In this document: positions 52,577 through 53,226 of the stretch, in pieces
Layout: each line of letters begins with the position of its first letter
Position numbering within the stretch: the first letter of the stretch is position 1
Source: Fimbriimonas ginsengisoli Gsoil 348
GTDB taxonomy: Bacteria; Armatimonadota; Fimbriimonadia; Fimbriimonadales; Fimbriimonadaceae
DNA: 64,000 nt
Direction of reading: 5' to 3'
NCBI RefSeq assembly: GCF_000724625.1
Contig: NZ_CP007139.1
Location: 3,844,001-3,908,000, forward strand
Made by a program: the position numbers and the translations under genes
The notes under the pieces: model-generated
The model's input: the letters and a program-made list of their open reading frames with translations, nothing else
The model's database searches: none
What the model was told of the DNA's origin: nothing

Positions 52577-52634
52577 CCCTCTCCCTTCGTTGATGCATGT
52601 GCAACGAAGGGAGAGGGCTGGGGTGAGGGATGCA
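52577..52634 (-). repeat. Palindromic element C (conserved-loop hairpin)
   Basis: CCCTCTCCCTTCGTTG (52577-52592) and CAACGAAGGGAGAGGG (52602-52617) are perfect 16-bp arms; the loop, read on the minus strand, is CACATGCAT. A flank GGGGTGAGGGATGCA (52620-52634) leads directly to the DUF559 gene. Elements A and B carry the same flank reversed. Confidence 0.9.
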
Positions 52635-52637
52635 AGA

Positions 52638-52973
52638 ATGCGAAAACACCGGCGAAGCTGCTCCGAAGGCGCGACTGAACGCGCGCGCCAGCTTCGCCAA
52701 GAGATGACTTCTAGCGAAAAGCGGTTGTGGAAGAGTCTCCGCGATCGGCGGCTGGAGTTTAAGTTTCGACGACAATATCCGATCGGCCCTTACACTCTCG
52801 ACTTCTTTTGTCCGGAGGCGGGCATCTGTATAGAGGTGGACGGCGATAGCCACATCGGACGGGAAGCTCGGGACGCTTTCAGGGACCAAGCACTTTTGGA
52901 TCACGGGATCGTGACGATACGAATTGCGCTTCCGACTCAGTGGGATTGGACATCGGGCACATCCGATGGCTAA
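52638..52973 (+). CDS. DUF559 endonuclease-like protein
   Basis: The 111-residue protein belongs to the DUF559 (Vsr/MutH-like, PD-(D/E)XK) family. The helix RARQLRQEMTSSEKRLWKSLRDRRL is followed by the nuclease core: FRRQYPIGPYTLDFFCPEAGICIEVDGDSH, with D (LDFFCPE), E and D (IEVDGDSH) as metal ligands. This is the single-domain form found in many genomes. ATG 52638 starts 3 bp after the flank of palindromic element C; the frame continues upstream through the palindrome to TTG 52590, so the true start is uncertain. Inverted palindromes bracket the gene (C before, A and B after). The function is not known; mismatch nicking, as in Vsr, is one precedent. Confidence 0.8.
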   Translation: MRKHRRSCSEGATERARQLRQEMTSSEKRLWKSLRDRRLEFKFRRQYPIGPYTLDFFCPEAGICIEVDGDSHIGREARDAFRDQALLDHGIVTIRIALPTQWDWTSGTSDG

Positions 52974-53050
52974 TCTTGGAGGCTTGCCGTCAGAGAGAAG
53001 GCTGAGGGCGTTCGTCCAGGCTACCTTTGCTGGTCGTCAAAGCAGGGTTT

Positions 53051-53111
53051 TTGCATCCCTCACCCCGGCCCTCTCCCTTCATCGGCACATGCATCCGACG
53101 AAGGGAGAGGG
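53051..53111 (+). repeat. Palindromic element A (conserved-loop hairpin)
   Basis: Flank TTGCATCCCTCACCCC (53051-53066), left arm CCCTCTCCCTTCATCGG (53069-53085), loop CACATGCAT (53086-53094), right arm CCGACGAAGGGAGAGGG (53095-53111); one A-C mismatch in the stem. Orientation is opposite to element C. Confidence 0.9.
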
Positions 53112-53165
53112 GGGCCCGAGCGTAGCTTTCTGGGCGATTTAGGAAGCCTCTGGTCGAGGTAGGTT

Positions 53166-53226
53166 TTGCATCCCTCACCCCGGCCCTCTCCCTTCATCGG
53201 CACAAACATCCGATGAAGGGAGAGGG
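53166..53226 (+). repeat. Palindromic element B (conserved-loop hairpin)
   Basis: Flank TTGCATCCCTCACCCC (53166-53181), perfect arms CCCTCTCCCTTCATCGG/CCGATGAAGGGAGAGGG around loop CACAAACAT. Same orientation as A, 115 bp away. It ends 8 bp before the stop of the ABC exporter gene. Confidence 0.9.

Follow-up and report, generated by a model that had tools for sequence, protein, structure and literature searches.

The DUF559 gene in the analysed window, i.e., the whole 64,000-nucleotide stretch of Fimbriimonas ginsengisoli Gsoil 348 DNA, is enclosed by inverted hairpins and is probably one copy of a compact, single-gene, REPIN-like mobile element that carries a PD-(D/E)XK nuclease in place of a RAYT. 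Such an element would consist of the DUF559 gene and inverted terminal units, in each of which a hairpin with one pyrimidine and one purine arm leads into a G-rich foot, the mirror image of the purine arm.

The gene (52638–52973, plus strand) encodes a protein of 111 amino acids. To its left lies hairpin C (52577–52617, plus strand), found by repeat search, with a 16-bp stem (CCCTCTCCCTTCGTTG/CAACGAAGGGAGAGGG) and a 9-nt loop. Its foot, CTGGGGTGAGGGATGCAA (52618–52635, plus strand), comprises a 3-nt linker and then GGGTGAGGG, a potential third strand of an intrastrand triplex. To the right, hairpin A (53069–53111, minus strand) is inverted with respect to C, as seen from the inverted repeat pairs, and its foot (53051–53068, minus strand; TTGCATCCCTCACCCCGG when read on the plus strand) faces the gene. 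Hairpin B (53184–53226, minus strand), whose foot (53166–53183, minus strand) was recognized from the sequence and the repeat search, is a tandem copy of A, with 94% identity over 66 nt at a distance of 115 bp. All three hairpins have stems of 16–17 bp and loops of 9 nt, and their single-stranded folding is far stronger than that of shuffled sequences (z values of −6.9, −5.2, and −5.9 for C, A, and B, respectively). The flank TTGCATCCCTCACCCC is identical in all three, each time on the gene-facing side, and each foot reads GGGGTGAGGGATGCAA on the strand leading away from the stem. Eight matches to the stem occur in the window, against 0.67 expected by chance, and no shuffled sequence contained as many. 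The inverted bracketing of the gene by hairpins with a common stem and flank, as described in the earlier note, is therefore borne out by repeat search and folding. Its statement that the gene begins 3 bp after palindrome C is correct if the foot (to 52635) is counted in the unit, but the stem itself ends 20 bp before the ATG. We count the G-rich foot as part of the hairpin unit because the comparative data given below show it to be so.

The protein matches PF04480 and no other family (E-value 1.8e-25; 89.4 bits with a cut-off of 20.6) and retains the invariant alignment columns E27, D55, E66-x-D68-G-x-x-H72, and D79. Its predicted model (pLDDT 82.8) resembles the DUF559 crystal structure 3hrl. 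Both profile and model comparison place it in the fold of the Vsr-fold homing endonucleases, represented by I-Bth0305I (PDB 3r3p; profile E-value 0.008, Z 8.1). Vsr (1cw0/1vsr; Z 6.9 and 6.4), TnsA (1f1z/1t0f; Z 6.5–6.6), and Holliday-resolvase-like folds are also among the structural neighbors. Small self-spreading genes exist within the Vsr fold. DUF559 shares a related nuclease fold with Vsr-fold homing endonucleases, Vsr, and TnsA, but it differs from them in being a free-standing, intergenic gene located between structured repeats, without an intron, an intein, a Dcm partner, or a TnsB/C partner. A PADLOC search gave only weak matches, to DpdF and mREase_II.

The 5.23-Mb genome contains exactly three DUF559 genes, all of which are bracketed by inverted hairpins, and each has its own hairpin subtype, matched between the left and right sides. 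At one of the other two loci (L003), the GAGAGGG block is missing from both flanking hairpins, which have an asymmetric stem with a mirror foot. A genome-wide search also yielded at least 69 dispersed exact-stem relatives, and those sampled are mostly single units of about 70 bp. Thirteen Y1_Tnp/RAYT genes (PF01797) are present as well, all located away from the window element. Most of them are flanked by their own inverted REP-like repeats, which fall into several families of other sequence, and none of the 13 adjoins the GA-rich hairpin. Therefore, two separate repeat systems seem to coexist in this genome. These data make it very unlikely that RAYTs or another transposase move the hairpins, with DUF559 as a passenger. 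DUF559 genomes do often carry RAYTs too, and RAYT-type REPs and the present units alternate at the same intergenic sites of Escherichia coli. Yet, most RAYT genes here have their own REPs, the hairpin foot lacks the GTAG/CGTC tag that described REPs carry (PMC3733652), and a 439-bp element that has DUF559 as its sole gene, and no room for a second one, recurs across phyla. RAYTs as mobilizers were accordingly rejected after all 13 Y1_Tnp genes of the genome had been checked.

To see DUF559 genes in a wider context, 80 loci were collected by scanning genome contigs with a pattern derived from the GxYxxDF region; they come from Planctomycetota, Pseudomonadota, Bacteroidota, Nitrospirota, Chloroflexota, Cyanobacteria, Patescibacteria, and other phyla. 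The exact stem of the window genome is nearly absent in relatives because hairpin families differ, and family-free flank tests were used instead. Strong inverted similarity between the left and right flanks was found at 52 of 75 DUF559 loci, compared with 0.5% of 620 control windows. A first hairpin finder (stem of at least 7, any composition) was too permissive, calling 72 of 228 control windows both-sided, and a pyrimidine-arm criterion was substituted for it. By this criterion, 54 of 80 DUF559 genes have hairpins to the left and to the right, as opposed to 2/564 control windows (p 5e-56) and 3/66 further genes from these loci (p 2e-16). It is hence barely credible that the hairpins are ordinary transcription terminators or GC-rich palindromes arisen by chance. 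The hairpins do stand at gene ends and fold strongly, but they are near-absent from these two controls, have no T-run, carry a conserved asymmetric foot, form matched inverted subtypes with dispersed copies, and are not an Rfam family.

In a set of 152 DUF559 loci, a hairpin was present on at least one side in 136, of which 101 had hairpins on both sides and 35 on one only; 16 had none. The earlier note regarded DUF559 genes without flanking hairpins as evidence against the association; most of the genes are flanked, but those 16 loci, and the 35 with one side only, depart from the pattern. The G-rich foot points toward the gene in 102 hairpins; in 17, C-richness is confined to the far side. 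The stem class clusters on the DUF559 tree, with 27 changes against 53.5 after shuffling (0 of 200 shuffles), a value to which host taxonomy contributes. In agreement with the earlier note, DUF559 termini read like translated GA-rich palindromes, as exemplified by ...GEGLGWGSAAM... and ...PHPSPLPQAGEGA.

Some DUF559 loci have features of their own. At G319:C1:2026643-2030374, the DUF559 gene adjoins a row of hairpins with a spacing of about 135 bp, which suggests local tandem amplification like that of A and B in the window, 115 bp apart. In fragmented assemblies, several DUF559 genes are found no more than a few hundred bases from the end of a contig (G009:C107, G009:C241, G005:C114, G016:C61), as repeats would. 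The plasmid-borne DUF559 gene of Azospirillum (L345) has hairpins on one side only and adjoins prfA in all sampled strains; there is thus no polymorphism at this site, and the gene is possibly a domesticated copy.

The foot gives the hairpins their class. In the window, GGGTGAGGG of the C foot is the mirror of the stem arm GGGAGAGGG except for one A>T change, so that the unit follows the order of pyrimidine arm, purine arm, and foot across a 3-nt linker (GGGAGAGGG-CTG-GGGTGAGGG for the last three parts). In a comparison of 308 hairpins, 7.17 of 9 foot positions agree with the mirror image of the purine arm, compared with 6.57 for a direct repeat and 5.85 for a shuffled foot; A>T accounts for most of the mismatches. 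Most linkers have 3 nt, and those with a second small hairpin have 12–23 nt; such a hairpin (ACCGCGAAGCGGT) was seen in the linker of alphaproteobacterial units (L092, L106, L112, L119, L122, L155, L159). Judged from base order, a pyrimidine arm, a purine arm, a short linker, and a mirrored purine foot make up the layout of a potential intrastrand triplex. Since the foot mirrors the purine arm, the hairpins belong to the intrastrand triplex (TM_ECO/BoxC) repeats, a class already described, of which the earlier note was unaware.

Holder et al. (PMC4666352) defined the triplex motifs TM_ECO (BoxC) by the pattern CCCTCNCCCN3-6GGGNGAGGGN3GGGNGAGGG and demonstrated triplex formation by TM_ECO DNA in vitro; BoxC itself goes back to Bergler 1992, as cited there. 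These repeats are intergenic, some form inverted type A/type B pairs, and their copy number varies strongly between strains, with 23 copies in E. coli MG1655, 29 in 55989, and one in IHE3034; Salmonella is reported there to lack them. The same study saw no activity in the gene contexts of TM_ECO that would give genetic mobility, so that what is new is the connection with DUF559. The DUF559 units have the same pyrimidine-arm, purine-arm, 3-nt linker, and purine-foot layout as TM_ECO/PIT/BoxC, but they include stem variants and phyla outside the published pattern. E. coli and Burkholderiaceae copies fit the first loop of 3–6 nt, whereas the window copies, with their 16–17-bp stem and 9-nt loop, do not. 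An Rfam search with the hairpin matched no family. The hairpins of the window genome also have extended stems and a conserved asymmetric loop (GCACATNCATCC and variants), both absent from the TM_ECO pattern; this loop may be a recognition element.

Whether hairpins and gene occur together can be followed in the Burkholderiaceae. Of 48 genomes with a strong DUF559 match, 24 have the Variovorax-type hairpin, as do 16 of the 303 without one (351 genomes; OR 17.9, p 7e-14); the p-value exaggerates the strength of this result, since members of one family are not independent. Equal abundance of hairpins in genomes without DUF559, which the earlier note considered fatal to the idea, was thus not found; the hairpin is much rarer there, but some DUF559-free genomes keep 8–9 copies. 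The number of copies reaches 56 per genome with DUF559 and 9 without it. Where carriers lack the Variovorax-type hairpin, 17 of 26 DUF559 loci show a different inverted hairpin. Dispersed units in Variovorax are inverted pairs of about 100–113 bp (genome G061), which correspond to REPIN-like doublets with a short spacer. At orthologous sites of related species, such pairs may be present or missing, may have shrunk to a single hairpin, or may have given way to another family. One intergenic spot was seen to hold one hairpin family in one Variovorax species (L186) and another in two (L228/L229).

The ends of hairpin pairs are the same with and without the gene, which gives the gene the appearance of an insertion into the spacer. 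This observation favors the main rival explanation, in which DUF559 is a homing-type gene that cuts within existing hairpin pairs or next to them and is then copied by repair into the spacer between them, the hairpins spreading by replication slippage or by another enzyme. It fits the fold, given the closeness to I-Bth0305I noted above, and it accommodates genomes that have hairpins without the gene. We nevertheless consider it rather unlikely. Few DUF559-free Burkholderiaceae contain the hairpin, no further gene was seen to accompany it, RAYTs come with REPs of their own, and two results from a single Variovorax junction, described next, speak against it.

Empty sites in relatives had been suggested as a further line of evidence. 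The congeners of F. ginsengisoli are too distant for the window element: only ahcY is shared, and its downstream neighbor differs. The comparison was therefore moved to Variovorax. Two of the congeners (L267, L273) have GA-rich motifs of their own downstream of ahcY. Element-free sites do exist at the Variovorax fadB–fadA junction, where 14 species have just a 16–25-bp gap and many others have the full element. Short remnants remain in some species, L328 has a solo hairpin, and L332, with the same flanks as L328, has two hairpins and the gene. No clear target-site duplication was seen in these empty-site comparisons, in which the flanks are just 82–89% identical. Two types of element occupy the junction, one with CCTTCCCCC hairpins and one DUF559 clade, the other with CCCTCTCCCGC hairpins and another clade. 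DUF559 identity amounts to 72% for members of one type and to 42% across the two types, and none of 19 cases is mixed. Hairpin type and nuclease clade switch together at this site; thus, hairpin and nuclease travel together, independent of site and genus. A homing-type gene accounts poorly for this joint switch and for the fact that relatives without the gene at fadB–fadA mostly lack the hairpins too.

The same junction bears on a further explanation, namely that DUF559 serves the host in repair or maintenance by resolving triplexes or cruciforms, and that selection, or regulation through these structures, keeps the gene close to them. The gene is under strong purifying selection (median dN/dS 0.083) and has long been retained at this one junction. 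Vsr-like and Holliday-resolvase-like folds are among its neighbors, and instability around triplex motifs has been reported (PMC4666352). However, an enzyme acting in trans needs no inverted, subtype-matched copies flanking its own gene in many phyla, and 14 congeneric species do without the element at fadB–fadA. A repair role is accordingly improbable. It should be noted that retention of the nuclease at one junction in many Variovorax species, as expected of a domesticated gene, also counts against the mobile-element reading, as does the fact that species are non-independent data points.

E. coli K-12 has one DUF559 gene, ycjD, located between sapF and fabI and present in about 3,360 of 5,375 matched E. 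coli genomes. It is missing in a strain with an efflux operon at that place, and its replacement by eefRABCD in other lineages has been reported (PMC12817139). TM_ECO-type units lie directly downstream of ycjD, and the 3′ end of the gene reads into one of them. The median number of units per genome is 20 with ycjD (n = 37) and 7 without it (n = 22; p 9e-9), but this contrast follows the phylogroups, and O157:H7, which lacks ycjD, still has about 15 units, so the contrast is suggestive only. At the yhjE–yhjG and yijF–gldA sites, some strains have a triplex-type pair and others a RAYT-type REP (L354/L358 and L357/L361, respectively); clean empty sites were not found at these two polymorphic sites, the RAYT-type REP standing there instead. 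The two repeat systems appear at these sites as if they shared or exchanged them. The feet of the pair at L354 point outward, opposite to those of the DUF559 elements; orientation rules may differ in E. coli, or pairs may form secondarily.

As to mechanism, we infer from the comparisons that the nuclease of the proposed mobile element would recognize the folded unit in single-stranded or cruciform DNA, most likely at replication forks, and introduce a nick at the foot or close to it. This could allow a single unit, or two units together with the intervening DNA, to be copied into new intergenic sites. Scattered hairpins would then relate to DUF559 as REPINs do to RAYTs, being its non-autonomous derivatives, and those found in genomes without DUF559 would be remnants.

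RAYT transposases with REP palindromes, named in the earlier note as the only described parallel, can still fairly be called so. In both systems, the gene stands between inverted palindromes that recur elsewhere in the genome, and the palindrome families are specific to each genome. Copies are scattered, mostly between genes, as single units and as inverted doublets, and orphan repeats occur in genomes that lack the gene. The differences lie in the enzyme, a PD-(D/E)XK nuclease with PF04480 only rather than an HUH/Y1 tyrosine nuclease, and in the foot, which is a G-rich mirror of the stem (CTGGGGTGAGGGATGCAA in the window, with the equivalents GGATGGGGGC and GGTGGAGGGGGC elsewhere) rather than a GTAG/CGTC tag. 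The DUF559 system thus works like RAYT/REPIN and is not a member of it. Compared with insertion sequences and MITEs, it likewise has inverted ends around one gene and short gene-less derivatives, but the ends are hairpins or potential triplexes instead of linear inverted repeats, the gene is no known transposase, and the clear target duplication of insertion sequences was not seen in Variovorax. No prior report pairing DUF559 with structured repeats was found in the open PMC papers searched. Within that literature, the pairing is new; by analogy alone, it could also be called a variant of the REP theme.

To our knowledge, DUF559 genes are common and have no assigned role, and we know of no spreading enzyme for the intrastrand triplex (TM_ECO/BoxC) repeats, which are common too. 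Linking the two gives each a candidate partner, and the pairing is seen in many phyla, including E. coli with its ycjD. On balance, we lean toward the view that DUF559 proteins, YcjD among them, are the dissemination enzymes of a bacteria-wide class of triplex-forming miniature mobile DNA, which would explain the orphan BoxC/TM_ECO/PIT repeats. If true, this would be the second REPIN-like system of bacteria, of independent origin and with no relation to RAYTs in either enzyme or DNA structure. The observations suggest that the nuclease either disseminates a widespread class of orphan repeats in bacteria or disseminates itself by means of it.
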